37,516 nucleotides of DNA from a virus: the IMG/VR virus record IMGVR_UViG_3300025168_000233, positions 1 through 37,516 of that record. The stretch is one strand, 5' to 3'. The notes below the pieces were generated by a model. It searched no databases, had not been told where the DNA came from, and saw nothing but the letters and a program-made list of their open reading frames with translations. Positions 3,885 through 25,160 of the stretch are shown piece after piece; position 1 is the stretch's first letter; every line of letters starts with the position of its first letter. A program made the position numbers and the translations under genes.

Positions 3885-4108
3885 ACTCAGATAAAAGGAA
3901 AAATGGGAGTATGGATAATATCGGAGAGCGATATAAAGATAGACTTGCTGACCAATCTGATTTCGTAGATGGAATTAGTGCATTCAGAGAGGAAACTCAG
4001 GAAAGAATGCTTGATTTACACGCTAGAATGAATGAATTGGAGTTAAGTCTTGAAGAAAGCATACAAAAAATTCGGGACTATCTCGAATCCTCAAAGAAAA
4101 AGAGTTAA
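3881..4108 (+). CDS. Small charged coiled-coil protein (75 aa)
   Basis: No family recognised. After a short polar N-terminus, residues 30-70 form a continuous amphipathic helix with heptad-like leucines (MLDLHARMNELELSLEESIQ), suggesting a small dimeric coiled coil, perhaps an adaptor for the replication proteins around it. The start overlaps the previous stop as ATGA, preceded by GGAGAGG, so it is translationally coupled. Its last 59 bases overlap the next gene in another frame. Confidence 0.65.
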   Translation: MNSDKRKNGSMDNIGERYKDRLADQSDFVDGISAFREETQERMLDLHARMNELELSLEESIQKIRDYLESSKKKS

Positions 4109-5004: not shown

Positions 5005-5163
5005 ATGTCTTTGGAGATTTACAGAAAACCAGAATACCATAATAATAAAAACTATAATTATATCAAATGGTTTAACCATATGAATAAGAGATTAAGTCTA
5101 ATTGAGAGATCAGTTAAAGATATAAGCGATACACTAAAAGCTGATATTACTGAAACTTATTAG
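5005..5163 (+). CDS. Short terminal plus-strand gene, 52 aa
   Basis: An unbroken frame runs from ATG at 5005, two bases after the nuclease stop codon, to TAG at 5161-5163, with AAGGA a few bases upstream of the start. The product begins MSLEIYRKPEYHNN, is rich in Tyr, Asn and Lys at first, and then forms a helix (NKRLSLIERSVKDISDTL) of the small coiled-coil type. No family recognised. Support comes from the ribosome site, the tight spacing and the helical periodicity. Its 3' end overlaps the convergent ejection-protein gene by 17 bases, so it is the last gene of the plus-strand arm. Confidence 0.6.
   Translation: MSLEIYRKPEYHNNKNYNYIKWFNHMNKRLSLIERSVKDISDTLKADITETY
5064..5082. repeat. 19-bp near-perfect dyad at the convergence point
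   Basis: CAAATGGTTTAACCATATG reads nearly the same on both strands, with one mismatched pair and a central odd base. The core ATGGTT-T-AACCAT (5067-5079) is exact. It lies within the 52-residue gene, just beyond the end of the minus-strand transcript, where an operator or a weak bidirectional stop could be placed. It may also be chance; no T-run follows on either side. Confidence 0.35.
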
Positions 5164-8047
5164 AAAACTTATTAGTCCCCAGCTTTAATTGCTTGGATAA
5201 CTCTTTTAAATTATCTTCGGAGCTAATAGCTGGGGCATTCTCGTACCCTATATATTCATTAAATTTTTCCTTGATTGGATCTGGAGTGTGTTCTGCAATT
5301 AAGTTACGAGTATCTCGTATCTTCTTGCTAGGGTATAACCCAGTTTCAATTTTTAAAGCTTGAAACATATCGCCCTTTAGAGCTGCAGGGAGACTATATT
5401 CCATTAATCGAGCGGCTTGCCCATTAAAGATCCTTAGCGAATTATATAACTTTGAATTATCACCTTTCTCTTTCCATGCATCGTTATACGCAGCTTCTCT
5501 ATGTGGCAGGCCAAACTCGTCTAATTTCCATAAATCTGCAATCTCACCCATTGTTAGAATATCAGAAACAACTGGCCCTCCAATTGTACCGGCAACAGGC
5601 CCAACTCCATAGAATGAATCAGCCATTTGTCTCTTGCCTTCATCAGTTTCTCGATCTCCCGTCATAAAGTCATACCATTGTGTCATCATGCCAAAAGTAT
5701 CATTAGACACTAAGTTGCCTAAGCTTGCATTAGTAAGAACCCCAAGTGCTCCTACTGATGAGTATAAAAATGCCATTCTATATAATCTTTGCATTTCTTG
5801 ACCACTAAAGTCACCCGCTTTCATAGCACGCTTAGCATCTTTTAACCATGTAGACTGAAGATCTATCATCGAGAATCTATAATGCTGATACTGACCAAAT
5901 ACTCTACCAGCTTTACCTCTTAATACTCGAGGTTTACCAGACTTAGCATAATCAAAATGCAAATCAATAGTCGCATGATATGCATAGTTACCAGCTTTAT
6001 CTGCAGCATATTGATCAGCCACCTTATCCGTAACGCTCTCAGCTTTATCTGCACTAATACGCCCATCTCTAACCATTTCTCTCTTAATAAAGTCATAGCC
6101 ACCAGATTTAAAACTATTATAAGCTAATGCAAAGGCTACCTTAAAAGTTTCCTGTCTATTGGCATTCTCTACTCTTCTATGTATCCCGCTTAAAGGCCCA
6201 CTAGATGCCATATCTCCAGCCTTTTGAGCTAATTTTTCCCCCATACTAGGAGTAGCATCAACCATTTGGCCTTTTTGATTGATTTTAAATTCACCTGGTA
6301 AATTAGGATCTACATTTTCTACAGCACCCCTAGTCATACTGGCTATATCTTTAACATTAGAACCCTGGGCTTCCCATGATATACCATGCTTTTTTAATGC
6401 TGCTGTTACTAGATCTGTATGCTCTCTATGATTAGCTCCAGTATAAAAGTCCTTTGAAAACTTTAAACCTTGACGACCAAATTGAACATAATTAAAAACT
6501 TTTTGCAATCTGTTTCGAATACCAGACCTAATATTACCACCCATTTTAGCTGCATGTTCCACAGATGTAATAAATCTAGTCATATTTTCTAGCCCAGAAT
6601 TACTATTCATATTAGAGCCTAATATAGCGTCATAAGTATAATTCATTGTTTCCATTAAGGATTCTGCAAATGGAGCTACCTCTGTAGCATTTTTGGACTT
6701 TTTGAATCTTGCCTCTAAGCTTCTAGCTGCCTGTGAATAATGAAGATCAAGACTAGTAGATAGGTTAAAGCGTGCGATATCATGTATATATTTATTCATA
6801 AAATAAAATGGATCTAATGAATACTCCTTAATAGTAATATCCTGTCTCTCTTGTAGCCTTTTGATTACGCCACCAAAGCTCTTCTCTTTTTCATGGAATT
6901 TTTCCCAGACATCCTTATTGCTTGATTTTGTATCTGATAGCATACTTTGCATGTCATTTAAGTGCTCGAATACTTTTAATACATAGTGTGGCATATACTT
7001 TCTTTGAATGACAGGCTTACCATTCTCAGTTTTAATTGCCCCATTAACAAAGCTGTCTTGAGCATTCTCTGATGGATGCCTATCTGTCTGTGATTGTTCC
7101 TCTAAAGTCTTTATTATCTTTTGGTATTTTTCAATTGTTTTAACTATTTTATTTGTATAAGGATCATTCTCCCTAGCTCTCAATTGAGTCAGTCTAATTA
7201 AGTTGCCTACACCAGCTCTAGCTCCCTCATACCCTACTTCTCTAATCTTTATATAATTATCATGAATATTCTTCATTAACACTTTATCTTGCTTGCTCCA
7301 TGGCTGACCATTAGATTTCTGGAGTGTATCTACGCTTTGAACTCCCTCTAATACATCTCTTAAACCTAGGTATAAATCTCCAGCCCTATCTCTTCCTCTT
7401 AGATTATCTAAGTTACCATCTGCTCTGCCCGTAAGATGCGTAGTTATACGTTTCCATATATTATCTATGTCTTTCATTGCGGCTCTAGCTTTAGGCTCAT
7501 TCTTACCATCATATTTTGCAAAATTATGACTTGCCTTTCTAAATTCTAATTCCATTTTTCTTAAGTCTGCTGGCTTTACATCAAACCCTTTTGCCAATTT
7601 AGTAAATGATTGCAGAATTACACTAAGATTTTTTGCAGGCTCATTAGTATGGTCTTTATAATAAGATAAAGCTAACTCCACAGCATCAACAAACTTCTTA
7701 GTCTCTGGGGACTTTGAGAGTAACCTACGAGGGATCTTTAAAAGGTTGCTAACACCACCATCAGCATGAGCAATATCAGCTTTAAACTCTTTGACTCCAA
7801 TAGCAAACTTTTTAATGTCAGCTGGGCTAAAGTTATATTCCTGTAAATCCAAGGGTACGCCTACAGACTTCTTGAATAGCCACAATAAAGTCTCTGTATC
7901 ATTATAGTGCAGATCCTTAAGCATTGAGTCATTCTGAAACTTTTCAACTGTCTTAGTCAATAAAGCATCTGCAGCCTTTGTGTCCTCAGGGCTCATATCT
8001 CGCTTCATCTTCTTTAATTTATCTATTGGTATACAAGCTGTGCTCAT
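5147..8047 (-). CDS. Large internal virion/ejection protein (966 aa)
   Basis: The protein is mostly helical. Around residue 350 it has a KYMPHY segment, seen in many large phage ejection proteins. From about residue 620 onward it shows the pattern of the C-terminal domain of polyvalent/internal phage proteins: NRQETFKVAFALAYNSF, then FGQYQHYRFSMIDL, then a hydrophobic stretch near 759-785 (MAFLYSSVGALGVLTNASL) that could insert into a membrane. Such proteins are packed in the capsid and pushed into the host to form the DNA channel; T7 gp16 is the functional analogue, with no close sequence match claimed. GGGAG five bases before the ATG supports the start. It lies 11 bases after the giant gene, and its 3' end overlaps the convergent plus-strand gene by 17 bases. 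Confidence 0.65.
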   Translation of the reverse strand: MSTACIPIDKLKKMKRDMSPEDTKAADALLTKTVEKFQNDSMLKDLHYNDTETLLWLFKKSVGVPLDLQEYNFSPADIKKFAIGVKEFKADIAHADGGVSNLLKIPRRLLSKSPETKKFVDAVELALSYYKDHTNEPAKNLSVILQSFTKLAKGFDVKPADLRKMELEFRKASHNFAKYDGKNEPKARAAMKDIDNIWKRITTHLTGRADGNLDNLRGRDRAGDLYLGLRDVLEGVQSVDTLQKSNGQPWSKQDKVLMKNIHDNYIKIREVGYEGARAGVGNLIRLTQLRARENDPYTNKIVKTIEKYQKIIKTLEEQSQTDRHPSENAQDSFVNGAIKTENGKPVIQRKYMPHYVLKVFEHLNDMQSMLSDTKSSNKDVWEKFHEKEKSFGGVIKRLQERQDITIKEYSLDPFYFMNKYIHDIARFNLSTSLDLHYSQAARSLEARFKKSKNATEVAPFAESLMETMNYTYDAILGSNMNSNSGLENMTRFITSVEHAAKMGGNIRSGIRNRLQKVFNYVQFGRQGLKFSKDFYTGANHREHTDLVTAALKKHGISWEAQGSNVKDIASMTRGAVENVDPNLPGEFKINQKGQMVDATPSMGEKLAQKAGDMASSGPLSGIHRRVENANRQETFKVAFALAYNSFKSGGYDFIKREMVRDGRISADKAESVTDKVADQYAADKAGNYAYHATIDLHFDYAKSGKPRVLRGKAGRVFGQYQHYRFSMIDLQSTWLKDAKRAMKAGDFSGQEMQRLYRMAFLYSSVGALGVLTNASLGNLVSNDTFGMMTQWYDFMTGDRETDEGKRQMADSFYGVGPVAGTIGGPVVSDILTMGEIADLWKLDEFGLPHREAAYNDAWKEKGDNSKLYNSLRIFNGQAARLMEYSLPAALKGDMFQALKIETGLYPSKKIRDTRNLIAEHTPDPIKEKFNEYIGYENAPAISSEDNLKELSKQLKLGTNKFSNKFQ
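5153..5175. repeat. Tandem 11-bp repeat at the convergent gene ends
   Basis: AAACTTATTAG occurs at 5153-5163 and again at 5165-5175, one base apart. The first copy holds the TAG stop of the plus-strand 52-residue gene; both copies lie in the C-terminal coding region of the minus-strand gene, where they encode a repeated NKF-type motif. It is probably a small slippage duplication. Confidence 0.7.
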
Positions 8048-8058: not shown

Positions 8059-11000
8059 TTAAAAAGTTGGTTTGCATCTTTGTTTGATTTTTTCTTTTAC
8101 ATAGCTCAAAGGCTCTTGAACAAGGTGACTACCTGGCTGGCCAAATCTACCTGTTCCTGAAAACTTCTGAGTTCCTACTATAGTTTGGCCGAAATGAGCA
8201 TCTCCATAAGGAGTAGACTTATTGTTCTTATCTACGGAGAACCTTTGATTTAGATACATCTCTTGAGGATTAAAACCCTTCTCTATAAACTTATTGGTTA
8301 ACCTGTCTAATTGAGATGGAGTCATTACTCTCTTGCCAGTCATCCAGTCCAAAAAGTTATTTAATATCTCAGACTTATGCATTGATTCTGCATTTATTTT
8401 AGTTAAAAAAGTCTCATTTAACTTGCCAGATATAACATCTAAATCAACATCACTAGCTCTAGAGGTACTCATATCATGGGATAAATTGTTTATATGGTAT
8501 GTAGGATCATATAATCTCATCTTTTCAACTGTTTTCATTTCAGTTATAGACTTCATAATCTCTCTGCTTTCTGCTTTAGGAAAGGCATGCTCATTAGCCG
8601 TATCACTAAATCTGCTGCCTGTAGCTTTAGCTGCCAAGTACTTATAAACAGGTTGCTCCCAAAAATTAGGCTTAAATGCATAGTCAAATGTAGTATTGCT
8701 GCCTGGCAAATTAGACGATGAAGTTATTGCTATAACCTCTCTATCAACCCCTGGTGTTAATAAAGAAAATATAAATGCTTTTCTTTGTGATGGGCCATCA
8801 AGCTCTTTAAGAGCATGGTTTAACAACGCCTCTTTCTCTATACTCTTTTCTGCAAATTTAGCCTCGTCCATTTCAAACTTATCATATCTTTGATCGTTCT
8901 CCATAACCTTATGGATCAGGCTTTTAACTTTGCCGTCAATATATAGCTTTTCTGTTATAGGCATAGTGCTTCCATCTCTATATTTAAGCACGCCACCAAA
9001 AACGTTAAACGCAGCTTTAGCGTCCCTATACTCGCCACCATCAACATGCTGAAATCTTCTGCCATTAAGTACAGCAATTTCATTTGCCCCAATATATTTT
9101 TTATTAGATTGTGTTGGATGAATAACTTCAGATATTTCCCTACCCTTACCAGTCTTTGTATATACAACAATTGGAGTCTTGAAGTTATTTATATACTTGC
9201 CTTCAGGATATGTAATCTGAGATCCATCCTCGCGCTTTCCAGCAATTTTAATCTTAAAGGTATTCTCTTTATCAAAAGTACTTACTAGTGCGTTCAAGTC
9301 AGCCTCTGCTCTCTTTAAAGCATCAAGCTTTTCCACTATAGCTATATGTTCTGGCATAACCTTGTAGGTCTTCTGATTATATTGTTCTAGCTCTCTTCTA
9401 GTCCTATCTAAGCCTTTTATAGCAGCGCCTAACTCTCCTAATTCTACAACCTTAGCCTGATTGTTCACATAATGTGCATATATTTTATTTAAATTCTTAT
9501 TCATATAAGCATCAATCTTAGTGGCTTCAAATCCAGAATTAGCAGCCGAATTTATCAATGTACTAACTATATCATTAGGACCCGACCTATTGCCTGCTCT
9601 GGCATTGTGAATAGATGATAATTCTGCCATTCCTCTGTCAAAAGGAGTCTCAGATGTACTATTAATATACTTCCAAAGAGCTTCCTTCCCATTTGTTATT
9701 CTAAAGTCACCCTCCATTTGTAGCCTGAAATCTGATTTATGGAAACTGTTAGTTAATGACCACATCAAGTTTGAGCGTCCTAATGCAAAATCGGCTAACG
9801 TGGCCTGCATAGACCCTTCTGAGCTCATTACTTCACCTTTATTAAAGCCTATATATTTACTTAATGGTTGTATCATCTCACGTACAATAGCATCCTTAAC
9901 TGCAGGATAATTCTTGCCATTCATAAACGCTTCTGCTTCACTTTGCTCTGATCCTCTTTTTGCACGCAATGTAAAGAGCCCATCTTTCCCAAAGTATATT
10001 TCTTTAATTATATCTTGGCCAGTATCATAATTCTCTAATCCTTTTGGTGGATTTTTATAATAATCTAAAAACTTTTTAACTAGAGTCCTAACAAATGCCT
10101 TATTGGTAGTGATTTCCATTGGGTTTCTAAGTATTACTTCTCCTATCATCCCACCAGTACCTATGTTAACCTCTCCTACAACTGTTCTACCATCACCGTT
10201 CTTATATAAATCAGCACCTCTACCACCATATTCACCGAATGCATTAACTAAATAAGTAACGATTTGATGCGCCTTAACGATTCTTCCTCTAAACTTATTA
10301 ACATCTGCTAACATATCCTTAACGCGTGCAGCATCATTAGGATTTGTAAGATCTATGTTTTGCTGCTCTGTTTTAACCATCTCTTTAATGGCATCTAAAG
10401 TAATCTGATCTGACACCTGATCGTGTCCTGCTACACTTAATACATTCTTTAAGAACTTCCCATGCACTGCAGTGTATGAAGCAGACTTATCCCAGTCAAA
10501 ATCTGCATCTTGAACTCTGTCAGCATCAGTCATATTCATCATTTTCATTGGGCCCATGTTCTCAGATAAGGCACCTTCAAAATATATTTCACCAGTCTTT
10601 GGATCAATATGGAATTGCCCTCTGGATTTAGTAACTACATTGTCAGTACCATTACTTGGCATTCTTAAGTCTGTAGCACCTAGCCATCTATTAGACTTAC
10701 CTGTAGCATAACCTTCCCTTATGTTTCTTAATGCTAGTTCTAATCCAAATGCATCAGTTTCTTTTATAAAATCACCATCACCATTTCGTCTTAATACTTC
10801 ATATCTGCCTGTTATATTGTTATGGGCTATATATAATTCTTGACCCCCAGCATAGTTATATTTTTGATTTAAACCAACAGGCTTACCTAATGTAAACTCA
10901 TATCCCTCTGAGCTCCTTTTAGAGATATCTGCATTGGTAATACCAAATATATCTTCTCTAGCGATAGCTTCCATTGCATCTGCATAAGTTAACGGCCCCT

Positions 11001-14000
11001 CTCCTTTTAGAGCCTCTAATTTATCCATCTCAGATACCAGCTCTTCTCTATGGATCTTTCTAGCTTTCTTTAATGCATCTGTATTTAAATCCCGTGGGGT
11101 TGTCTTTCCATTATTGCTCACTAATTCACCACTTAATAATAATTCAAACCCTTCAACTGATACCTTAGCAGTGTTGCCATCTTTATATATAACATATTCA
11201 GCATGTATAGGGATTTCTTCTCCGTGAGTTACTGGTACATCATTCTTCATCTCCCATCCAACTCTCTCTGAACGTTTGATAATAAAAGAACCTACATTTT
11301 GATGAGTCCCATCACTATGTCCAAAGAAGCTAAGCTCTTGTGCACCCTCTACATGAGATGGCATACTCTCACCAAAGATATACTGTCTACCATCATGCTT
11401 TAATGGTTGGGCAAAATTCCCTCTTTCAGGTATCATAATATTCATATTACCACGACCAGCTTCTGCAGTAGCAATAGATCCACCATTTAAATAATATGAG
11501 ATCATTTTTTGTTCTATCTGCCTACGAATCCACGGTGTATCACCTGTCCCACCATCCTTCAAGAAGATATCTAAACCTGAATTAATGCCTGACATATCTC
11601 CATCTCTAGTAAGAACATCAGTTACTTGTCTAGCAATTTTAGTAGACCTATATGGATCAGTATAAAGGTTAGAGAAACTTTTTCTAGCTGCTTGAAATCT
11701 AGAATTTAATTGTCCCCACTCAAATATACCATTATCATGATTGGTATGAACTCCCATAGACTGAGACAATGTAGGTAGGTGGTTTAATGCCATATTCTTA
11801 AGCATAATACTTGAAAGGGGAATTTCTGCAACATGATTAGGGTTATGTGGGCTAAAGCTAGCTCCATCCTTATCGACCAATTGCTTCATGCCATCATGAG
11901 CTAATGGATTAAGTAGACGATTAGGACTGCTATCCATATCCCTCATATACCTATCCGTACCAGGCCCACTATCTGGGGAAAAATTATTAACCTTATTACC
12001 AGACTTAAATGCTAACATGTCTACGCCTAAATCTTTCATTATGCCAGCCATAACAGGATCATAATGGAATGCTGTTTTATTATAATAAACTTCATGAGAA
12101 CCATTGGGCCCTACATAAGAATGCGCTATAACAGGCTTTAATCCATATTTTAATCCATTGATGTTACCATCTCCATCAAAGGTAAAATGCTCTTGTCTAG
12201 GCCCCATAATGCTAGCGAAAGCAACCATTGGGTCTAATGTTACATATGTCACGGCATCAGTCATCTCTTTAAATTTACCTTCAAGCTCTGCTATTTGCTT
12301 CTCAAGCATATGCTCTGGGATTCCACCTTTTATTTTATTCCCATCAACATCATAGCCCTCATAGAATCTCTCTCTCATGGCTGCTACATATCTATCGTAT
12401 ATATTATATTTATTAGGTAAAGGCTTTCCATTTGCATCAACACCATTTGCACTTTCATCAATGGTTAATATTTTAACTGAACCAGTCCCATCAGGTTTGA
12501 TTACATTAGACGCTCTATCTAAAACTGCCTTAAATAAAGGACTATTCATAGACTTTAAGATGTCTATTGATGACTTAACCATTACTGGGTTAGGAATAAT
12601 ACCACTCTTTGATGAGCTCATCTTTAAGCGCTTCCATAAATCTGCATTCTGTGTCCCTTCATAACTGACACCATCACCCCATAGATTCTTATCTAGATAC
12701 ATCTCTTTCAATTTATGTGGGAAAGCTTTCATTAACCTTGCATGTAATATTATTTCCTTAGCTTGTGAATCAGTAAGAGTTTCTTTAGAATTTATCATCT
12801 TATTGAACCTAGTATGGCCATCAGTATTCGCAACCATACGATCTAATACGTTTTTCATTGGAGCTCCTTCAGAAAAGGCTCCTCTGATACGATCCTTCGC
12901 TTCTTTATCAAATCGTATAATAAGATTAGTACCTTCGTCCATAGCTATTCTAATATACTTTTTTGGAGTTGTTCCTTTAGTATTTATTTCCCCAGCCTCG
13001 CCTAAATGCCCTTGAATATTCTCTACATTGAGTACAAACTGTTGTAGGTCTGAATCTATTCTAGCCATTTCCTTAGTGCCAAATCCAAATACTGGTTTTC
13101 CGTCAATCTTTCCAGTGTCCTTGAGTATATATGCACCATCCCACAAATTGAAAGCATCTAAGACACCTGTAACTCCATGGTCTGTCCAATTGCTAAGTCG
13201 TTGCTCTCCTACAGTACCAACTCCTGCTTTCCCGTTCTGGGAATTATATGTTATTTCTTTTACAACTCTTGAATTTAATAAATGGTCAACAAACCCCTGT
13301 TGAAGGTCAACGACTATTTCATCCATAGTGGGTATTTTAATAGTGGGGTCAGATTGATTCCTGAGTATCATTCTGTCCATTAGTCTCTCAGCCCATGGCT
13401 TGATAAAATCTTGTGGTGTTGCATTATTTATATCAAATTGAGGTTGATTTAAACTCTTATAACCATTTGCATCAAAGAATACCCTGTCTATACCTATAAG
13501 GTATTGACTGTTGTTAGGGGAAGTGGGGTCATAATACATGGCTGCCGCTTTTCCTAAACGCTTTACAATTGATTGGTCTAGTCCAAATTTAACAATAAAT
13601 TCTTGTAAGCTTACCCTGGGCTTATCACCCATACTTTTAGCTGCTGCCCTGTCAACGTTATTCTGTCCAACCATATCCTCAAAATGCTTATCATACTCTT
13701 TTATATCTTTTGCAAAAGTCATCTTCTTAACTATGCTGTCTAATATTTTAGCATGCATCTCAGAAATAGGGCCATCTATCTCTCTATTTGTTTGCACATC
13801 ATCAATAATCTTATCTAGTCGATGAACCTCTTTTGCTAAGGCATGAAGAACTGTTCTATCTCCTTCAGCCATAGCGGTTTTATATTTATATTCTAAAGCA
13901 TTAGTCTGCTTAAGATGAGAAGTTAGCATTTCAAGCAATGCTGGTTCTGTAGCTGGATCAGCCATCTTTATCTCTATGAATCTTTTGGATAATGACATAC

Positions 14001-17000
14001 TATCACCTACAGCATTACTAAGGTCGCCACTATCTATAATCTCATATCTATATGTATCAGATGCACGCATAGCCTTCTCTATGGCTATTGTCCAGTCTAC
14101 TGCATTATCATGCTGTGTTGATCTCTCCAGGGAAATAATACCTCTCTCTGTACTACTCTGCAATTCTCCAACTAACTCTCTGTAGAAACCCATATAATGT
14201 TCGGTCATATCTACACCATTTGGCTTATTAGAATATAAAACATTGAGATGCTCTAAGACAGATGGAAGGTCTGGCAATACAATCTTTCCGGTGGCTTTAT
14301 CCCAACTTCCAAAGTCTCCACTACTAACCAATTCCAAAAGGCCTCTCTTAACGTCATGTCTATTATGTAGGCCATGCCCACCTAAGTCTTTGGTGAAGTT
14401 TTCAATAGATAATGTTACAGCCTTACTAAATGACTTAGGATTGCTAAATACATCTCCAATCATAGGGATCAATTTATCCCTTAGATTTTTTAACTCACCC
14501 ATATTTAGATCTACTTTTTCTGGCTTTGATACAGGAGGATTATAATATTTCAGATACTGATTAAGGTTCTTGGCAAATACTTGAAGCTCCGTAACTTCAG
14601 CAGTGTCCATATTCCCTGGCTCCCATGTTATGTCTTTATTGGCCAGCCTAGAAAATAATTCCCTAACATGCTTTGCGTCAGCAACATTAACACCGCTAGG
14701 ATCACCTTTTCCGGTAACTACATATTGTATTCGATGGGCTTGATTGTTTTCTCTATAGGCATGATACGAGGCCCATCCAGCATCAGAAGCCATAGCCATA
14801 TCCATATTAGCTGCATGAATGCCCTGATCCCTATAATTTACCCCATGTATTTCTGAAAGCACCCTGTGATTAGCATCATCAAATAGTTCTTTTCTAATCT
14901 CCCCTGTAACTTTACTAGAAGGCATCTTAATATCCATTTTTGTTTCCGTACTACCAGAAAGAAGCCCTGCCTCACTAGCTCTATTGATAAGTCTAACAAT
15001 ACTATCAGTCATCATCGGGTCACCACCCTTAGACCCAAAGTCAAATATTCTTGTGCCTAAATCTAATACATTTTGTGGTATCTCAATCTTCCCTGTCTCT
15101 GGATTATAATCTGAAGGTATATCTAGCTTTTCAAATAATTTATGCAAGAACTCCATCTTTATATTAGTAGTCCCAAGTGTTTGTTCCTGGAATACCTTAT
15201 TGGCTCGATCAGTTAACATCTGAGATAGCTGTCTAGGAGTATCAGCACGTTGGTTCCCAACTGACTGATTCTTTAAACCCTCTAGCATAAGGTCAAAGTC
15301 ACCTTTTTCCATAGCCACTTCATTAACTTTTTCTACACTATAAGCTCTTTTATGGGCTAAGATAGCCTCAAACATCCCTTGGGCTGTCTTTACCTCCCTT
15401 AATGCAACGCGTCTATCAGCTTCACTTAATGCTGGATCAGCTTTAATCTCTACTATTTTATCTACGATATATTGCTTGAAGGTTTTTGCACCATCTCCTA
15501 ATCGATCTAATCTTTCACCCATAGTTTTACGTGGAGCATTAGCAGCTTCAATAGTATCATATGCAGATTTTAAATCAGGGTCCTTAATAATTTGTTGCTT
15601 TGCTTGATCTCCAGCCAGACTAATATCACTGCCTTTAAAGGCTTGGTGGTGAAGTTCTAATACCTTATCTGAATAAGATAGATAATTTGACGCCTCTTGT
15701 AATTTTTTAATTTCATCTGCAGTCTCTGCGAAATGTCTATTGCTTTCAGACATCTGTTCCCAATACTTACTCTTATTTCTAAACTTTTCACCACGCTTAG
15801 AGAACATCATGCCAACAAATAAATTAGCCATAATCTCTTCAGGCTCAGTACCCAGTATTGAAGATGCATCACTAAGACTACCGCCAGATTTACCTAACTC
15901 CCATATATTAGGGAGATTCATAGCGGCAGAACCAGCCAACATCCTAGGGAGAGACTGATACATATCTTTCCACGCCCCACTTGCAACAAGGCTATTTAAC
16001 TCTGATGGAATATTCTTCATTGATGCAGTAAGAATAGCATCTAATTCTGCTTCAGGCATACTCTTTATAGATGATAAGTCAAATTTAGGGTTTGTAACCC
16101 CCATCTTAGTTAGCACCCCAGACTCCCCTTTTGAGGCCTTATATAGTAGTTTAACGGCCTCTCTTTTCTGCGGGATAGTATAACTTAACATCTTCTCAAA
16201 AGAGGTTGTACTACGCTTTATAATACCACCTATATCATCAGCAAGTATCTTACTGCCTTTACCCCCAGGTATAAATCTTGCTACTCCTATAAAGCCACCC
16301 CAAGCTCCATGATGAAGCATATCTGATGCCATCTTACCAGCACCATCATACTCAACCTTTGCATCTATAGCATGTTCAGCGCCAAATTTAGTAATATTAT
16401 GGGCTACAGCAGTCATCCCACCATGGAGACCTACTAATACAGCATCCATAGCATAGGCTGATATAAGATCTTGTGCTTTATCTGGAAGGCTATCGCTTAA
16501 TAAAGATCTAATAGCATGCCTAACATTGGTCGGGTTCTCTGTTTTGACAACCTTAAATACTGCTTGGGTTATTTGCTCTAGTTCATCTGGGCTAACCTTA
16601 ATAGCTCCTCCAGCCGCACTATCTAAAACCCCCGCAATACTTTTCTGCAAGTGGTTAACAGTAATCTCTTCAGCTACATCATTCCCCATCCTTCTTGCGC
16701 CCATTTGAATAGCTTCTTCGCTTAGGGTTGTGTATCCAGACTTCATTGGATTGATGAAACCATTGCTTACTTGCTTTAATTTATTTCCCTCTGCAACTAT
16801 ATCCGATACTACTTGCGATCCTAACTTATTAATCTTTCCAGTAGATCCAGTAATAGACTTTGCTAATGTATTATTTGCTACTTCATCAACAAGAAACTTT
16901 CCTATCTGTTTTTCATTCTCTTTAGTAAGTGCCTTAGCCCCAAGTCCAATGCCTCTAGATGTTGCAGATACAGCCTTGCTAGCCCAACCAAACGTAGGTA

Positions 17001-17394
17001 GCATGCCCAGTCCAGAGCCAACTACATAACCGGCTTTACCCATGCCTGTTAAATCATCCCAGTTTCCCTCAGCCCCTAATGCTAAATACTTTTCTACTGC
17101 ATTCTCTTCAGTGAGGCCTGTACTCTCAGATAAAGTTTCTCCCAGTTCTAACGTACCCCATGCAGCACTATCTAATGCCCCCCATACCATCTGTCCAACA
17201 AATTCATGCATGTTATTAGCAATGCTATTATCTTTTTCCTTGGAGGGTTCAGTGGGTTGTGCCGGAGGAGTATATTCAGGTAATCCCTCAACGACATCCT
17301 TTTCTTGGGATTGCTGAGGATTAGGGCTGGATACTCCTGCTTTTCTCTTTTCTTCTTCTGTAAGGAAGTTTAAAAATTCTTCAGTTAATGCCAT
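8059..17394 (-). CDS. Giant ejected virion protein (3111 aa), candidate DFDxD-type RNA polymerase
   Basis: This single frame takes a quarter of the window. Residues 1-60 are polar and rich in Pro, Gln and Glu; 65-150 and 310-375 contain glycine-rich hydrophobic segments; the rest alternates helices and strands. Residues 1738-1801 hold a KPVIAHSYVG...YNKTAFH...LGVDMLAFKSGNK run, with Lys1797 and Lys1801. Residues 2296-2303 read DADFDWDK, placing Asp2298, Asp2300 and Asp2302 in the DxDxD spacing of the metal site of two-barrel RNA polymerases (YonO, crAss-like gp66, QDE-1); those enzymes also have a catalytic lysine in the first barrel. Position among ejection proteins and size fit a virion-packaged polymerase that enters with the DNA. 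No lytic transglycosylase or peptidase motif was seen. Virion/ejection role is likely; polymerase activity is a hypothesis. GAGG precedes the ATG by seven bases. Confidence 0.6.
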   Translation of the reverse strand: MALTEEFLNFLTEEEKRKAGVSSPNPQQSQEKDVVEGLPEYTPPAQPTEPSKEKDNSIANNMHEFVGQMVWGALDSAAWGTLELGETLSESTGLTEENAVEKYLALGAEGNWDDLTGMGKAGYVVGSGLGMLPTFGWASKAVSATSRGIGLGAKALTKENEKQIGKFLVDEVANNTLAKSITGSTGKINKLGSQVVSDIVAEGNKLKQVSNGFINPMKSGYTTLSEEAIQMGARRMGNDVAEEITVNHLQKSIAGVLDSAAGGAIKVSPDELEQITQAVFKVVKTENPTNVRHAIRSLLSDSLPDKAQDLISAYAMDAVLVGLHGGMTAVAHNITKFGAEHAIDAKVEYDGAGKMASDMLHHGAWGGFIGVARFIPGGKGSKILADDIGGIIKRSTTSFEKMLSYTIPQKREAVKLLYKASKGESGVLTKMGVTNPKFDLSSIKSMPEAELDAILTASMKNIPSELNSLVASGAWKDMYQSLPRMLAGSAAMNLPNIWELGKSGGSLSDASSILGTEPEEIMANLFVGMMFSKRGEKFRNKSKYWEQMSESNRHFAETADEIKKLQEASNYLSYSDKVLELHHQAFKGSDISLAGDQAKQQIIKDPDLKSAYDTIEAANAPRKTMGERLDRLGDGAKTFKQYIVDKIVEIKADPALSEADRRVALREVKTAQGMFEAILAHKRAYSVEKVNEVAMEKGDFDLMLEGLKNQSVGNQRADTPRQLSQMLTDRANKVFQEQTLGTTNIKMEFLHKLFEKLDIPSDYNPETGKIEIPQNVLDLGTRIFDFGSKGGDPMMTDSIVRLINRASEAGLLSGSTETKMDIKMPSSKVTGEIRKELFDDANHRVLSEIHGVNYRDQGIHAANMDMAMASDAGWASYHAYRENNQAHRIQYVVTGKGDPSGVNVADAKHVRELFSRLANKDITWEPGNMDTAEVTELQVFAKNLNQYLKYYNPPVSKPEKVDLNMGELKNLRDKLIPMIGDVFSNPKSFSKAVTLSIENFTKDLGGHGLHNRHDVKRGLLELVSSGDFGSWDKATGKIVLPDLPSVLEHLNVLYSNKPNGVDMTEHYMGFYRELVGELQSSTERGIISLERSTQHDNAVDWTIAIEKAMRASDTYRYEIIDSGDLSNAVGDSMSLSKRFIEIKMADPATEPALLEMLTSHLKQTNALEYKYKTAMAEGDRTVLHALAKEVHRLDKIIDDVQTNREIDGPISEMHAKILDSIVKKMTFAKDIKEYDKHFEDMVGQNNVDRAAAKSMGDKPRVSLQEFIVKFGLDQSIVKRLGKAAAMYYDPTSPNNSQYLIGIDRVFFDANGYKSLNQPQFDINNATPQDFIKPWAERLMDRMILRNQSDPTIKIPTMDEIVVDLQQGFVDHLLNSRVVKEITYNSQNGKAGVGTVGEQRLSNWTDHGVTGVLDAFNLWDGAYILKDTGKIDGKPVFGFGTKEMARIDSDLQQFVLNVENIQGHLGEAGEINTKGTTPKKYIRIAMDEGTNLIIRFDKEAKDRIRGAFSEGAPMKNVLDRMVANTDGHTRFNKMINSKETLTDSQAKEIILHARLMKAFPHKLKEMYLDKNLWGDGVSYEGTQNADLWKRLKMSSSKSGIIPNPVMVKSSIDILKSMNSPLFKAVLDRASNVIKPDGTGSVKILTIDESANGVDANGKPLPNKYNIYDRYVAAMRERFYEGYDVDGNKIKGGIPEHMLEKQIAELEGKFKEMTDAVTYVTLDPMVAFASIMGPRQEHFTFDGDGNINGLKYGLKPVIAHSYVGPNGSHEVYYNKTAFHYDPVMAGIMKDLGVDMLAFKSGNKVNNFSPDSGPGTDRYMRDMDSSPNRLLNPLAHDGMKQLVDKDGASFSPHNPNHVAEIPLSSIMLKNMALNHLPTLSQSMGVHTNHDNGIFEWGQLNSRFQAARKSFSNLYTDPYRSTKIARQVTDVLTRDGDMSGINSGLDIFLKDGGTGDTPWIRRQIEQKMISYYLNGGSIATAEAGRGNMNIMIPERGNFAQPLKHDGRQYIFGESMPSHVEGAQELSFFGHSDGTHQNVGSFIIKRSERVGWEMKNDVPVTHGEEIPIHAEYVIYKDGNTAKVSVEGFELLLSGELVSNNGKTTPRDLNTDALKKARKIHREELVSEMDKLEALKGEGPLTYADAMEAIAREDIFGITNADISKRSSEGYEFTLGKPVGLNQKYNYAGGQELYIAHNNITGRYEVLRRNGDGDFIKETDAFGLELALRNIREGYATGKSNRWLGATDLRMPSNGTDNVVTKSRGQFHIDPKTGEIYFEGALSENMGPMKMMNMTDADRVQDADFDWDKSASYTAVHGKFLKNVLSVAGHDQVSDQITLDAIKEMVKTEQQNIDLTNPNDAARVKDMLADVNKFRGRIVKAHQIVTYLVNAFGEYGGRGADLYKNGDGRTVVGEVNIGTGGMIGEVILRNPMEITTNKAFVRTLVKKFLDYYKNPPKGLENYDTGQDIIKEIYFGKDGLFTLRAKRGSEQSEAEAFMNGKNYPAVKDAIVREMIQPLSKYIGFNKGEVMSSEGSMQATLADFALGRSNLMWSLTNSFHKSDFRLQMEGDFRITNGKEALWKYINSTSETPFDRGMAELSSIHNARAGNRSGPNDIVSTLINSAANSGFEATKIDAYMNKNLNKIYAHYVNNQAKVVELGELGAAIKGLDRTRRELEQYNQKTYKVMPEHIAIVEKLDALKRAEADLNALVSTFDKENTFKIKIAGKREDGSQITYPEGKYINNFKTPIVVYTKTGKGREISEVIHPTQSNKKYIGANEIAVLNGRRFQHVDGGEYRDAKAAFNVFGGVLKYRDGSTMPITEKLYIDGKVKSLIHKVMENDQRYDKFEMDEAKFAEKSIEKEALLNHALKELDGPSQRKAFIFSLLTPGVDREVIAITSSSNLPGSNTTFDYAFKPNFWEQPVYKYLAAKATGSRFSDTANEHAFPKAESREIMKSITEMKTVEKMRLYDPTYHINNLSHDMSTSRASDVDLDVISGKLNETFLTKINAESMHKSEILNNFLDWMTGKRVMTPSQLDRLTNKFIEKGFNPQEMYLNQRFSVDKNNKSTPYGDAHFGQTIVGTQKFSGTGRFGQPGSHLVQEPLSYVKEKIKQRCKPTF

Positions 17395-17407: not shown

Positions 17408-18562
17408 TTAATAGTCTAAGCCTTGATCTTTTAAAAACGCCTCTGGAGAAACTCCAGTCTCTGCATACCCCTCGTTTCTATAGGCCTCAATAAGTCCACC
17501 AGACCCTTGCTGATTAAGAGCTTGCTTTAATTGTGGACTCTGCTGATATATAGAGTCTAATTGTGCTTCATAAGTCTGCTGTAAGCTAGCTCCAGATTTA
17601 GTCGTATTGAGAGGGTCTACCTTTTTAGATTTAGCAGAAAGATTGGCAGCAAGATCTGCTGCTTTTGCTTCGGCTTCCATCTTTTCTAATATTGGGATTA
17701 GAACATTCTTTTTATCTCTATAGCTATAACTCTTTAATCCTTCAATCTCGGTTTCTCTTCTTGTGGTTAATTCATGCTTATTCCATTCTTCCATTGTATT
17801 GAATGTCTTTTCTTTAGTAGACTTACTCTTTAGGAACTTTTGCTCACCCATAGCAAGCAAAGAATCATAAGCATCTTGACCCATTTCATTTTTAATATAT
17901 TCATGCGTAGCTTTAGAGGGATCATCCCAGCTAAATGGATTCCCACCAAATCCTAAATCATCTTGCTTAAGTAACTCTGGATTAGCCTTTGATGGATCCA
18001 TCCCAAGTGTCTCAAAATTAAAAATTGATAGTAATGGATTTTCTCTATTATAATGAGAGTCTGCTATAGGATTCAACTCATTTAAAATATAATCATCAAA
18101 CTCAGGTCTCCAAACATCTTGCACTTCCTCTCTAATCTCCCCTGCAACAACATGCTTTGGTCTTTCCATAGTATCTTCAGGCTCCATAAAGCCACGAGTG
18201 CGATTATCATGGATGCTGAAATTCGTATCATCATCCTGCAATTCACCCTTCTCAAGTACAGTTAAGGAATCATATATAGCATCCCATCCACCAGAAGCAG
18301 TAATCCTGGCCTGAAAATCAGCATCCCCTTTATCCACTTCTCCACTTTCAAAGGATTTAATAGCATTCTCATTATATTTAGCACTACGATTTGCAGCATC
18401 TGTACTATCTTGTATTGCTCGGTTAAAGTCAATATCTTCCTGTGCCTTTATTTTCTCTGCTGCAATCATACTTAACGAATCTAATGCATAATCTGTATTC
18501 TCAGTGAGATCATCAATATTAAATGGTAATCCTTGTCCTGGTTTCTTTGGCTTTGCAGACAT
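17408..18562 (-). CDS. Internal virion protein, unknown fold (384 aa)
   Basis: No family recognised. The protein is hydrophilic and mostly helical, with an acidic central part (residues 90-160, containing EVQDVWRPEFDDYILNEL) and a C-terminal segment of Gln/Ala-rich helix (QQTYEAQLDSIYQQ) ending QGLDY. There is no signal peptide or membrane segment. Its place between two other ejection-block genes and directly before the giant protein suggests it is packaged in the capsid or acts as a chaperone or scaffold for the giant protein. The ATG follows the upstream stop directly (TAAATG), and the AAGGAG ribosome site is encoded in the last codons of the upstream gene, so the two are translated in tandem. 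Confidence 0.6.
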   Translation of the reverse strand: MSAKPKKPGQGLPFNIDDLTENTDYALDSLSMIAAEKIKAQEDIDFNRAIQDSTDAANRSAKYNENAIKSFESGEVDKGDADFQARITASGGWDAIYDSLTVLEKGELQDDDTNFSIHDNRTRGFMEPEDTMERPKHVVAGEIREEVQDVWRPEFDDYILNELNPIADSHYNRENPLLSIFNFETLGMDPSKANPELLKQDDLGFGGNPFSWDDPSKATHEYIKNEMGQDAYDSLLAMGEQKFLKSKSTKEKTFNTMEEWNKHELTTRRETEIEGLKSYSYRDKKNVLIPILEKMEAEAKAADLAANLSAKSKKVDPLNTTKSGASLQQTYEAQLDSIYQQSPQLKQALNQQGSGGLIEAYRNEGYAETGVSPEAFLKDQGLDY

Positions 18563-19906
18563 TTATAGCTCCTTACCTATTTCGATTAATATTGAGTTCC
18601 TGGCAGACCTACTTAATGCACCTCCTTTATATTGTTCCATTAATGCATTAATCTCCTCTTTCCCACCGCCAGAAGACAAGATGAGTTTTGCCTCATTATA
18701 AAATTGATTTTGATAGCCTTTATAGATATTATCTGCTTTACCAGTTTGCAACTTCCCTAAGACAGCTTCTCTTAATCTTAATTGCTTACTGTTAATGGCT
18801 GTCCTTACAGACTTAGCTTCCTCTTTATTTATCTTAAGAACACTTCTGCGATTCTCTAGAGCTTGATTAACAGCAGCATATATACCTGGATGCATCGCTT
18901 CCTCAGCCTGCATCTTCTCTACATACTCTTTCCATGCCGGCCCATCAGATGTTTTCATTCGTAGTATCTTATCTAGTTCTACCTCTGGCTGTGTAGATAG
19001 AACCAAATTGCCAATAACACTTTCGGTTGCCCATGCAGTATCCTTTAGCTCATAGCCAGTTTTCTTCTTGTTAACCTTAAACTTACCATACTGACTAAGT
19101 ATACCTTTAAGATTTGATGCTACGTTAGATACCACCTGGTTATGGTTTTTGTATTCTTCTGTCTGGGTTAACGCACTGGCAAGTTCAAAGTCATCTTTAG
19201 TATTAGATGCTAAGTATTCATTGTACTCTGCAGTATCCTTGTATATGCTACTATTCTTTCTTAAGCCTTCCTTAAAAGAGTTGTATCTGCGTGATAATGT
19301 TTCCCGATCAACTCCTACTTTATCCTCAAACTTTTGTCCACCAGTCCCCGCAATGCTAGTATATGTTTCACCAGCTTCAAGGACACCCATGGACTTTAAG
19401 TATTCATCATTCGACATAGGCTCTTGGTTATTATATATATGGTCTTCCATATAATTATCTAAAACTAATACATCTTCTTCTGTAGTGTAGGATGGGGAAA
19501 AATCTGGCATATCAGAGTAATAAGCATTAGCCTTTGTAAAGGTAGAGCTAGCTAAATTTGCCCCAACAGAAGAAAACCGAGAGTGTTCATTAATTGCTAA
19601 TAGTGTTGCCTCTTCATCTAGAGCGCTAGTACCATCATCATTCTGAGTCCATTTCTGAAACCTTTGATTCTCAGGAGCTGTAGCCATTGATGTATTTGCC
19701 TCAGCTATCCTATGCTCCTTTCTCTTATCTAACAATGAAAAGTCATGCTTGCGAGCAAGCTCATTCTCTGCGCCCTGTGATTCTAATTTAAGTTTTTCTA
19801 ATGCATAGTTCATCTCTCTCATTTTACTATCAGTATAAGCACCATGCAATTCTTTAACTACCGCTGCCCAATCCCCTACGTTTGAATCTCTTCTATAACT
19901 TGCCAT
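18563..19906 (-). CDS. Internal virion protein, helical (447 aa)
   Basis: No close family recognised. The sequence is strongly helical and highly charged throughout, with a coiled-coil-like N-terminus (MREMNYALEKLKLESQGAENELARKH near 33-60) and repeated Tyr-rich helices. No membrane segment is visible. Position in the ejection block, together with size and composition, fits the class of internal core proteins such as T7 gp15, which form the core stack and help DNA translocation; this is an analogy by position only. It starts ten bases after the 276-residue gene. Confidence 0.55.
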   Translation of the reverse strand: MASYRRDSNVGDWAAVVKELHGAYTDSKMREMNYALEKLKLESQGAENELARKHDFSLLDKRKEHRIAEANTSMATAPENQRFQKWTQNDDGTSALDEEATLLAINEHSRFSSVGANLASSTFTKANAYYSDMPDFSPSYTTEEDVLVLDNYMEDHIYNNQEPMSNDEYLKSMGVLEAGETYTSIAGTGGQKFEDKVGVDRETLSRRYNSFKEGLRKNSSIYKDTAEYNEYLASNTKDDFELASALTQTEEYKNHNQVVSNVASNLKGILSQYGKFKVNKKKTGYELKDTAWATESVIGNLVLSTQPEVELDKILRMKTSDGPAWKEYVEKMQAEEAMHPGIYAAVNQALENRRSVLKINKEEAKSVRTAINSKQLRLREAVLGKLQTGKADNIYKGYQNQFYNEAKLILSSGGGKEEINALMEQYKGGALSRSARNSILIEIGKEL

Positions 19907-19915
19907 ATATAATCC

Positions 19916-20746
19916 TTATGATAAATCTTCGGTTAATGCATCTAATTCTGCGCTACTATAACTCTTATCTGTTGCCCCTTGGTATGCGCTAGTCATAGAC
20001 GAGATATCTTTAGCCATGGATGCTAATGCGTTGGCCTGATTAAGTGTAGCTTGACCTATCTGTGCATCCTTAGTATCCTTAGCTTGAGCATACGTATCAT
20101 TAGCAGCACCTAATGCATCGGTTGCATTTGCCCTTGTATCTCCTGCTGTAGCATATGCTTGCTGTGCATTAAAAGCTGTTTCCATAGCTCCAAATTGAGA
20201 GGTTCTTTGTGCCATTCCTGCCTGAGTATTAGATATAGCAGCCTGTTGATAGGCATCTTTCATTGCATTCTCATGCTGTGTTTGAACTTGTCCCATACTC
20301 TCCATGCCAGATGCAGCTGCCATTTGAGTGGCTGCTCCTCCTGATTTTGCTGCTGCTGCTTTACCAGCCATTGATGTTTGAGCACTAGCAAGCCCAGCTG
20401 CAGTACCAGCATTCTGCATTTGCATGCCCGCTTTAGCTTGACCCATCATCTTCTTATCACCTGCACGATTAAATGCGGCTCCTGCTCTCTCATCTTTCCC
20501 GGCAGCTCTTGCTTGAGCATTGCCTGCTCTGTTATATTGATTGACAGCTCTATTCTTCTCCTGTGTAGTAAACGTATCTAATGCTGTCATTTGTTTACTC
20601 ATTTGACCTAATGCTGTATCTAGATTTCCAGCCAATGATGTATTTCTTGCAGTAATACCCCTGCGATCCTCTCCATAATTAGAGTTGGGATCTGAACCAA
20701 ATATTCCCCAACCTCCTTTTGATGGTTGCCATTTAGAACTACTCAT
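19916..20746 (-). CDS. Ala/Gln/Gly-rich internal virion protein (276 aa)
   Basis: The composition is extreme: Ala, Gln, Gly, Met and Thr dominate residues 60-240 (for example GQAKAGMQMQNAGTAAGLAS), arranged as a long amphipathic helical array with no aromatic core. Proteins of this composition and place (after the tail tubular and fibre genes, before the larger core proteins) are typical small internal virion proteins that enter the outer membrane during ejection, as T7 gp14 does; sequence identity to gp14 is not claimed. The start overlaps the preceding gene by eight bases, with GAGG nine bases upstream. Confidence 0.6.
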   Translation of the reverse strand: MSSSKWQPSKGGWGIFGSDPNSNYGEDRRGITARNTSLAGNLDTALGQMSKQMTALDTFTTQEKNRAVNQYNRAGNAQARAAGKDERAGAAFNRAGDKKMMGQAKAGMQMQNAGTAAGLASAQTSMAGKAAAAKSGGAATQMAAASGMESMGQVQTQHENAMKDAYQQAAISNTQAGMAQRTSQFGAMETAFNAQQAYATAGDTRANATDALGAANDTYAQAKDTKDAQIGQATLNQANALASMAKDISSMTSAYQGATDKSYSSAELDALTEDLS

Positions 20747-21086
20747 TTAAGTTGGCCTCTATTTTCCATTGCAATACTTTCATATCTTTGAACCTTCTTT
20801 CCCAAAGTTTACCATCTCGTTTGGTTGTGAATTGCACCTTAATGCATTTGTGCCTTCTGGCAAAATCTTTAATATCATTCCATACTTCATTAGACTCTTT
20901 AATATTTTGAGTATCCCAGAACATTGTTCTTATCCAGAATAGATTGCCTATGATTTCATATTCAACCCAGCCTCTATCACCAAGGTCATACAGAAGAGCC
21001 CCACCATCGAATAACTCTTCCTTTGTATCCTTTGATTTATGCAGATATGGTTCAAGGTATCTTAAGACATTCTCAGATATATTAAT
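20739..21086 (-). CDS. T7 gp13-like/GNAT-like small virion gene, probable ATT start (115 aa)
   Basis: The frame is open from 21086 to a TAG at 20739. The C-terminal half (VWNDIKDFARRHKCIKVQF followed by GKLWERRFKD) matches the small phage proteins between tail tube and internal protein genes, whose pattern is W-x-x-I-x-x-[WF]-A-x-x-x-x-C-x-x-[IV] then a W-E-R-x-x segment; these are described as gp13-like or acetyltransferase-like. The N-terminal half (LFDGGALLYDLGDRGWVEYEI) also fits that family, so the 61-residue form from ATG 20924 would be truncated. No ATG, GTG or TTG exists in the N-terminal half. ATT at 21086, overlapping the preceding TAA as ATTAA and with GGAGG 11 bases upstream, is the best candidate; CTG codons are the alternatives. 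Confidence 0.6.
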   Translation of the reverse strand: MNISENVLRYLEPYLHKSKDTKEELFDGGALLYDLGDRGWVEYEIIGNLFWIRTMFWDTQNIKESNEVWNDIKDFARRHKCIKVQFTTKRDGKLWERRFKDMKVLQWKIEANLNE

Positions 21087-21903
21087 CGTTTAAGAATCCT
21101 CCAAGGAGACTTGCTCCCATAGCGCCCCAGCCTATTGGCCCTGATAAGAGCCCAGCAGCCATAGCAGCACTTCCTAATCCACCTGCTACTTGTAATGCCC
21201 CACCAGCTTTACCTGCTGTTGTTTCTGATTTCATCATTTTATTTGCACCACCAACAGCTCCGGCTACACCAGCTACACCACCTGCAACATTCATACCCGT
21301 TCCAAGTGCTGATTTAAGACCGCCTTTACCAGCTTCAGCAGCAGCAGCAACACCACCTTTAGTAGTAGCATCAGCAGCACCTTTAACAGCAGTAGTAGCA
21401 TTTGACACAGGAGGTGGATTCATAACATCATCTAAACTATCAGCAAGATCTCCGCCAGACAGTTTATCAACTGCTGGAGTTACTTTCATGCCTAATTTTT
21501 CTGCAGCAGGAGTCATACCAGCTCCCTCAGCACCCTTAACAGCTTCTACGCCTTGAGAACTAAATGTTTGCTTGGCTTTATCCCATATATTTGCATTGGG
21601 GTCGGGGTTTATATTTTGAAATTGATCTGCCCCTACGACTTTATCCGTTTGCATGCTTGATAATTTTGCTTGTTGTAAATCTCTAGACTTACTTGCAAAT
21701 TCAGCTTGCTTAATAGCCATCTGACCAGTATTAGTAACAGCATTCATTCTAGATGCGCCTGCTTCATCTTCTTTTTGTTCGCGTTCTAACCTATCCTTTT
21801 TATGTAGCATAGCTTGGTCACTAAATATACTTGATAAACTCCCTGATGTGCCTGGTTGCCCAAAGGTAGCACCACCTCCTAAAAAACCTGGTCCTGTAGC
21901 CAT
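21082..21903 (-). CDS. Internal virion protein with glycine-zipper C-terminus (273 aa)
   Basis: Residues 1-130 are polar and helical (KKDRLEREQKEDEAGASRM near 36-54). Residues 160-270 are nearly all Ala, Gly and Val, with two hydrophobic blocks (MNVAGGVAGVAGAVGGANKMM and MAAGLLSGPIGWGAMGASLLGGFL) whose Gly spacing resembles glycine zippers found in membrane-inserting peptides. This fits an ejected protein that inserts in the host envelope. GGAG precedes the ATG by six bases. It lies between the tail fibre and the gp13-like gene. Family not recognised; a virion/ejection role is inferred from composition and place. Confidence 0.6.
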   Translation of the reverse strand: MATGPGFLGGGATFGQPGTSGSLSSIFSDQAMLHKKDRLEREQKEDEAGASRMNAVTNTGQMAIKQAEFASKSRDLQQAKLSSMQTDKVVGADQFQNINPDPNANIWDKAKQTFSSQGVEAVKGAEGAGMTPAAEKLGMKVTPAVDKLSGGDLADSLDDVMNPPPVSNATTAVKGAADATTKGGVAAAAEAGKGGLKSALGTGMNVAGGVAGVAGAVGGANKMMKSETTAGKAGGALQVAGGLGSAAMAAGLLSGPIGWGAMGASLLGGFLND

Positions 21904-24900: not shown

Positions 24901-25160
24901 GTTCCATCATCAATAACAGTGTCTGTAGTACCACTAGTACCGCTTCCTGATTGACTTTCAGATGGAGGACTAGCAGGAGGACCTACTGGAATCTCCTCTT
25001 GTGTAGGAGGAGCATAATTGCCTCCAGGTTGAGTTTCTCCATTGCCAGGGCCATCTCCACCACCACCGCCTGGATCGCCCATTTCATAAGTATAATCTGA
25101 ATATTCCTCATCACCATAGACATAGTCATTATAGGGATTGTATTTGTAGTCGTCCATCAT
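21969..25160 (-). CDS. Long tail fibre (1063 aa)
   Basis: Residues 1-100 form a Tyr/Gly/Pro-rich linker. Near residues 170-200 stands the tail-fibre signature GIDHGTLGGKSDDDHTQY, common in phage fibres, followed by a very long beta-rich, Ser/Thr/Gly/Asn-rich shaft with repeated SGG, SNS and TIGSG turns, up to a C-terminal globular part with several cysteines (residues about 960-1063) that is probably the receptor-binding tip. No intramolecular chaperone (peptidase S74) motif is visible. The start overlaps the stabilisation protein's stop as ATGA. The fibre is the most likely host-range determinant here, although the LamG and carbohydrate-binding-like proteins upstream may also bind surfaces. 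Confidence 0.85.
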   Translation of the reverse strand: MMDDYKYNPYNDYVYGDEEYSDYTYEMGDPGGGGGDGPGNGETQPGGNYAPPTQEEIPVGPPASPPSESQSGSGTSGTTDTVIDDGTTPADNDGYEGEIRTVMSANGPIMYRKTNGSWVVYYGTSNFAPDGSNINEVIAAALASMGMDVLESSGGDVLDSSGTLPDPLVVTGLTVNGVLTAAGTETGIDHGTLGGKSDDDHTQYAILTGRAGSEQNLRGGVAPGGHLYLESTTDNSKGIVKIQNNSGGVLIGTDTTLAGGLHVASQVGNVSLHMSRDGNDGDHGQIHTGSNGEMVIRATSNSAVPSLTLQTFLNDGTASGAKAGDIVFDNTGGDVRPNDTTPRVNLGVLAKKFKEIHAETLRVETLVSDNVIATIGGRIIVTPSSTLGEGLISEASSTVKLMHNSLGDHYIVLKSGGNAEYIRLGSQSGTSTHSDGIRTMYHYPSSTRNKNGLGSVPTWDAGTSVASYAGSAAGDGMMELYSQSALLLPGSSSGTAPVGPTILGLKRTSATDYYDTVESFAVGNLNNLFGESGADQYGIAAGNYTATGTWMRASNLGFAVKYNSTSTVNKFEVDGNGNTTIGSGTNYIFLASSSNHDMIGTDLVDAGDIVLYGGSANKYIWLDSDAAKVTLRASASNYLELSGTSVKLVSSSASIDLDGVGGQITASGIISGASLQTGASGPRVVISDNSIANSASIGGLCSFIEISPHGSGGALGGNDTDLIHVGIYQNGGGSIMRLGGNTVAAGKFRGRIWHSANQYTSVTTGDNNVNSNVAYTRWQTEVYDGANSILYQQIVTQASPKGIFTSINKASVDNFYIGNEMTTPHFAVDATDDEYGSAIDRSYIATGGYLKVGQSIQGNSGKLLIIPASDNDANLYTAELNSVLSSYGDDSESSVITGVASHHWNNNVTNIISDRATIFTSRACSRESTGVTTTAGGKNVFGYASGCRTNAGRHSIHRLNGNVSGWAVGVLSKQTENSRAMLLYIFISDSTVTWSFLDSGSNHNAASSGDGFCSETVTMTAVPSTYLNASKLRVAWSNTGDPQKLVYWHQICGSVGMVCSYDA

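Follow-up and report, generated by a model that had tools for sequence, protein, structure and literature searches.

A giant putative ejection protein of an uncultured phage with a predicted internal two-barrel RNA polymerase

Gene content of the window

The window analyzed here is a whole IMG/VR record (IMGVR_UViG_3300025168_000233) of 37,516 bases, classed as linear. Its gene strands converge near 5.0 to 5.1 kb, with replication-type genes on the plus strand (1-5003) and structural genes on the minus strand (5147-37430). Since neither a terminase nor a portal was recognized, the record is probably incomplete. Positions 1681-3453 encode a primase-helicase fusion, in which an archaeo-eukaryotic-type primase part resembling the primase of Thermus phage P23-45 is joined to a DnaB-like helicase part. 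No promoter was found in the window, and no promoter-like repeat family stood out.

The structural strand carries a 3,111-aa open reading frame (ORF) at 8059-17394, which an earlier reading made from the sequence alone had listed without its strand and which we place on the minus strand (Table 1). That sequence-only reading also assigned the gene to an ejection block, an assignment that its neighborhood bears out: a tail-tube-like gene and small structural genes lie upstream, a PLxRFG-type gene lies downstream, and this order is kept in the relatives described below. The 966-aa product of the downstream gene scored below the cutoff of the PLxRFG domain model NF032893. It also gave a weak match to the C-terminal end of phrog_11358 (3,431 positions), as if a giant fused version existed elsewhere. 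Direct searches with the giant protein itself against Pfam, PHROGs, NCBIfam, PDB sequences, phage records, and viral contigs gave no match, and its family is unnamed in every profile library used.

Table 1. Features of the giant protein and of its neighboring genes, in window coordinates
Feature	Coordinates	Strand	Basis
880-aa gene, tail-tube-like by inspection; led to relatives	25157..27799	-	
Four upstream ejection-block/structural genes (384, 447, 276, 273 aa), no cysteine	17408..21903	-	
Giant probable ejection protein with predicted internal two-barrel RNA polymerase	8059..17394	-	ORF; family membership
Conserved N-terminal region, aa 49-572 (RFIPGG, SxPRM)	15679..17250	-	hmmsearch domain; blastp hits in relatives, lowest E 1e-6
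First barrel (DPBB-B) region, aa 1567-1802, predicted	11989..12696	-	hmmsearch domain; part before RxP versus crAss RNAP profile, P=7e-5
NKTAF, conserved Lys1773	12067..12081	-	K in 17/17
FKSGNK, conserved Lys1801	11992..12009	-	K in 17/17; aligns with DGVK (K1065) of gp66
Inter-barrel connector, ~175 aa longer than in relatives	10669..11988	-	Spacing count
LRMPS, invariant R2244-x-P2246	10654..10668	-	18/18; R-x-P also in crAss RNAPs
Second barrel (DPBB-A) and bridge-helix/trigger-loop-like region, aa 2277-2885, predicted	8740..10566	-	hmmsearch domain; hhalign 2274-2899
DADFDWDK, putative metal-site triad D2298, D2300, D2302	10486..10509	-	18/18
C-terminus RCKPTF and stop codon; sole cysteine, residue -5	8059..8079	-	
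Next gene, 966 aa, PLxRFG-type; a homologue follows the giant in every relative tested	5147..8047	-	9/9 records, best E 3e-51

The giant protein belongs to a divergent family

From residue 2296 onward the giant protein reads DADFDWDK, with aspartates at positions 2298, 2300, and 2302 in the spacing of a two-barrel RNA polymerase (RNAP) metal site, as the sequence-only reading had pointed out. The protein contains three DxDxD motifs in all; its shuffled versions gave an expectation of 0.91, with at least one motif in 57% of shuffles. Because about 0.9 such motifs are expected by chance at this length and composition, DxDxD alone is no evidence for a polymerase, and it gains meaning only through its conservation among relatives of the protein.

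Relatives were reached through the 880-aa tail gene, which led to nine contigs, the longer of which have a similar gene order and a giant ORF; alignments of these giants then led to more. The relatives now comprise about 20 IMG/VR contigs, in which giants of 2,772 to 2,993 aa (2772 to 3111 aa for the family with the window included) are directly followed by a protein of 887 to 951 aa. Scanning genome contigs with the family alignment yielded no relative. In two of the IMG/VR contigs, L030 and L031, the primase-helicase is 57 to 62% identical to that of the window, and since they have both this gene and the cassette in common with it, they belong near the phage from which the window derives. 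We also observed that the partner downstream of the giant in L023 is split into two overlapping ORFs (14626-16053 and 15992-17326; 475 and 444 aa), possibly by a frameshift, and that the tail-tube-like protein, a single ORF in the window, is represented by two adjacent ORFs (~519 and ~392 aa) in L002, L006, L009, and L010.

BLAST matches between the window protein and the relatives' giants were weak yet collinear. When the window protein was compared by hhalign to a profile built without it, residues 2274-2899 were aligned with P=1e-13 and a probability of 98%, with DFDWD placed on the DFDID of the family, while the reversed sequence gave P=0.085 and ten local shuffles gave 0.12 or worse. With hmmsearch --max, the protein scored 43 bits over three collinear blocks (residues 49-572, 1567-1802, and 2277-2885), compared to 1.0 bit at most for 200 local shuffles; this match needs the filters off, as the bias filter causes the default search to miss the protein. 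Judged by these alignments, the window protein is a member of the giant family.

Conserved residues and barrel spacing

In a core alignment of 18 sequences, whose relatives are mostly 15 to 25% identical to the window protein, seven residues are invariant (R2244, P2246, N2287, D2290, D2298, D2300, and D2302), and on this conservation we reject a chance origin of the DxDxD motif. The tryptophan of DFDWD is absent from the relatives. Three lysines, K1753, K1773, and K1801, are kept in 17 of the 17 sequences that cover those positions. The sequence-only reading had offered two candidates for the first-barrel lysine, Lys1797 and Lys1801, both within GVDMLAFKSGNK, which begins at residue 1790; Lys1801 is among the conserved positions, Lys1797 is not, and the second conserved lysine is instead K1773 in NKTA.

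Alignment to the crAss-like RNAP gp66 of phage phi14:2 sets K1773, K1801, and D2298 against K1027, K1065, and D1361, respectively. This alignment of the first barrel, together with general knowledge of the enzyme class, suggests that K1773 and K1801 are the catalytic lysines. They would lie in DPBB-B, which is N-terminal to DPBB-A as in single-chain forms, and the DxDxD metal site of DPBB-A aligned to that of gp66. The spacing between the two lysines is 28 to 31 residues in the family, close to the 38 in gp66. The lysine-to-aspartate spacing is 497 in the window protein, versus 299 to 338 in the relatives, a range close to the 296 in gp66. This large spacing, for which an insertion had been predicted, is accounted for by an insertion of about 175 residues that is specific to the window.

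Profile and structural kinship to two-barrel RNA polymerases

We compared the family alignment to a profile that combined gp66 with ten crAss-type phage RNAPs. The match spanned both barrels over 311 columns (P=2.1e-7, score 74.2), and 100 column shuffles scored 27.8 at most. It was also seen for only the segment preceding RxP (P=7.3e-5), for the second barrel alone (P=6.6e-4), with the motif masked (P=1.5e-5), and with the window sequence left out (P=3.4e-6); an earlier 14-sequence alignment behaved in the same way. Among 135 phage proteins compared to the family, gp66 ranked first, with the low score of a single sequence, and YonO ranked fifth, in the wrong place, its best alignment lying away from the catalytic site (P=0.13, single sequence). 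YonO, one of the enzymes named for comparison in the sequence-only reading, was thus not recovered at a meaningful position, the nearest proteins being crAss gp66 and QDE-1. P23-45 gp96 and gp64, used as single sequences in hhalign, gave no useful match to the family, and no BLAST-level match to the phi14:2 capsid or terminase was found in 13 records (fragments) comprising the window and relatives.

An AlphaFold2 prediction of residues 1480-2640 of the window protein was unusable (pLDDT 39.8). Since this model of its own core is poor, the fold of the window protein rests on homology to its relatives. For one of these, L077, a prediction of residues 1480-2400 from 18 sequences reached a pLDDT of 71 and a pTM of 0.69, with pLDDT mostly 80 to 95 around RxP and DxDxD, and it includes a 33-residue helix (607-639) after DPBB-A. 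In a Foldseek search of the PDB with this model, phi14:2 gp66 (6VR4) ranked first (E=8e-7), followed by QDE-1 (E=1e-6), RDR2, and a P23-45-type gp64, with TM-scores by query length of 0.30 or less. VIA-align returned two-barrel RNAPs in 50 of 50 rows, with Z values that are moderate for a 921-residue model (QDE-1, 12.1; P74 gp62, 10.1; 6VR4, 9.3 over 588 residues; gp96, 9.1). Among viral predicted structures, the best matches were unnamed proteins (29% identity or less, TM 0.80), followed by crAss-like proteins.

The sequence-only reading had predicted two double-psi barrels with the metal-site aspartates on one of them, and had proposed structure prediction of the core as a check. That check was uninformative for the window protein and favorable for L077, whose two-barrel matches agree with the crAss profile match. 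The predicted two-barrel core fold is therefore supported for L077 and is carried to the window protein by homology.

Cysteines at the termini of the giants and their partners

Each of the 15 giants examined has exactly one cysteine, always among its last five residues, and each downstream partner likewise has exactly one, among its first nine. This set comprised the window, L016, L017, L018, L020, L021, L023-L026, L030, L031, and L077-L079; of these, the giant of L031 and the partners of L023 and L031 come from incomplete ORFs. In the window, the 966-aa partner has its sole cysteine at residue 5 (8033-8047), and the tail proteins contain seven cysteines (880 aa) and six cysteines (1,063 aa). 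Because cysteine is rare in these contigs (0.23%), its scarcity is only mildly surprising (P ~0.01 per giant); it is the placement at the termini that stands out.

A similar placement is found in crAss-like cassettes. In phi14:2, gp67 ends in a cysteine, gp66 has cysteines at residues 3 and 2179, and gp65 has one at residue 3. In crAss001, the positions are -3 in gp47, 5 and -9 (and 1334) in gp50, and 5 in gp49, and in the DAC15 cassette they are -3, then 5 and -1, then 4, with a few internal ones. In cr50_1 gp059 and Fpv3 gp32, which have long N-terminal extensions, the N-terminal cysteine is absent and the C-terminal one is kept, and their partners keep the N-terminal cysteine. Carjivirus gp44, which is annotated as fused to another subunit and has its DxDxD at residue 1432 of 4070, keeps C3 and has no C-terminal cysteine. 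Where subunits are fused, then, the terminal pair is gone at that junction. N4 gp50-52, T7 gp15 and gp16, and P23-45 gp96 have no cysteine, and YonO has 14.

Taken together, these patterns lead us to lean toward a model in which the ejected RNAP subunits of the giant family and of crAss-like phages are joined C-to-N by disulfides between terminal cysteines, as one chain passing through the tail in order, with fusion replacing the joint in some phages. Such joints would be opened later, in the reducing cytoplasm. Alternatively, the terminal cysteines may bind something else, for example, a metal or a third protein. When the partners of the giants were compared to those of the crAss-like phages, they matched with P=0.006, which is only suggestive of homology, and no profile match was seen between the giant and crAss gp67-type proteins. 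Two structural papers make no mention of cysteines in cargo proteins, and our literature search found no report of cysteine joints or of the giant family.

Discussion

Overall, the evidence makes it very probable that the 3,111-aa protein is a giant virion ejection protein that carries a two-barrel RNAP in mid-chain (approximately residues 1500 to 2640) and is injected into the cell, its nearest described kin being the crAss-like virion RNAPs (vRNAPs). The proposed packaging, ejection, membrane role, and early transcription are drawn by analogy to several precedents. The gp66 protein of phi14:2 is a virion component that accompanies the DNA into the cell, where it transcribes early genes (PMC7886860), the gp96 vRNAP of P23-45 is fused to the tape measure (PMC10770324), N4 gp50, an ejected protein of 3,500 aa, has its polymerase in the middle third (PMC12633501), and crAss001 virions contain RNAP subunits as cargo, the ejection of which is thought to involve partial unfolding (PMC10172136). 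By this analogy, the window protein would be packaged, threaded through the tail, and then refolded. Its N-terminal region, which is marginally hydrophobic by hydropathy at residues ~310-330, is possibly a membrane or channel part and would probably help exit from the capsid and envelope crossing. The polymerase part would enter the cell with the first DNA and then transcribe early genes, with the catalytic metals held by D2298, D2300, and D2302 and with K1773 and K1801 contributed by the barrel opposite.

We weighed this proposal against three others. The protein could be a degenerate polymerase, in which the two-barrel fold is kept as a structural or DNA-binding domain of an ejection protein and no RNA is made. 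In favor of this, no member of the family is more divergent than the window protein, which has DFDWD and a large insertion. In contrast, every catalytic position is retained in a chain that for the most part is below 20% identity, and loss of function should have eroded the triad and the lysines first, so we consider degeneration improbable. A two-barrel RNAP made after infection and not packaged has a precedent in the non-virion enzyme gp64 of P23-45 (PMC10770324). We regard this as very unlikely for the window protein, since its gene is on the late structural strand with tail and ejection-type genes as neighbors, a conserved N-terminal region is fused to the polymerase, and the protein is nearly cysteine-free like known ejected proteins, although this last argument is weak because gp64 also lacks cysteine. 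Finally, an N4-type (T7-like) giant virion RNAP, or a plain ejection protein without a polymerase, would fit the size and gene position, which are those of the N4 vRNAP, and a DxDxD motif expected about once by chance, but a motif scan found no T7-type motifs, the motif is invariant, and the family fold matches two-barrel RNAPs, leaving this explanation hardly any room; a PF00940 search gave no match, and its control gave none either.

The preferred reading, a packaged and injected two-barrel polymerase, adds a family of uncultured phages to the crAss and P23-45 cases already described for virion-packaged enzymes of this class, and it would provide a second arrangement, convergent with N4, of a polymerase buried in a giant ejection protein. 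We place the window protein in a new and highly divergent lineage within a known class of enzyme, encoded in a phage cassette unrecognized by the libraries used; a new lineage had also been proposed in the sequence-only reading. That reading named the class of enzyme correctly, came close on the residues, and was less accurate about the nearest relative. The terminal cysteines offer a simple, testable idea for how giant proteins are ordered during ejection, a question that N4-like and crAss-like phages also pose.

Among known systems, YonO of SPbeta is likewise a single-chain two-barrel RNAP (PMC5467207), but it gave no meaningful profile match and is rich in cysteine, whereas near absence of cysteine is common to the window protein and the ejected gp66, N4 gp50, and gp96. 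The highest structural scores were to the eukaryotic RNA interference polymerases QDE-1 and RDR2 (Z of 11 to 12), which, unlike the window protein, are cellular enzymes without fusion to ejection proteins. N4 gp50 (Schitoviridae) is similar in its size of about 3,500 aa, its polymerase in the middle third, its ejection, and its lack of cysteines (PMC12633501), a likeness that is convergent because the N4 enzyme has a T7-type polymerase fold. P23-45 gp96 (8H2M), which was found by the same DxDxD route (PMC10770324), also joins a two-barrel vRNAP to a giant tail protein that is ejected, but there the RNAP is N-terminal and clamp-less, and there is no sequence match. The crAss-like vRNAPs (phi14:2 gp66, 6VR4; crAss001 gp50) differ in that sequence similarity is at the profile level only, the window protein is longer and has its own N-terminal region, and the crAss-like partner is 1.35 to 1.6k aa compared to 0.9 to 1.0k aa in the window family. 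They share with it a single chain with both barrels, the R-x-P..DFDID signature, a cassette near the tail genes, a partner protein encoded next to the polymerase, and cysteines at the termini.
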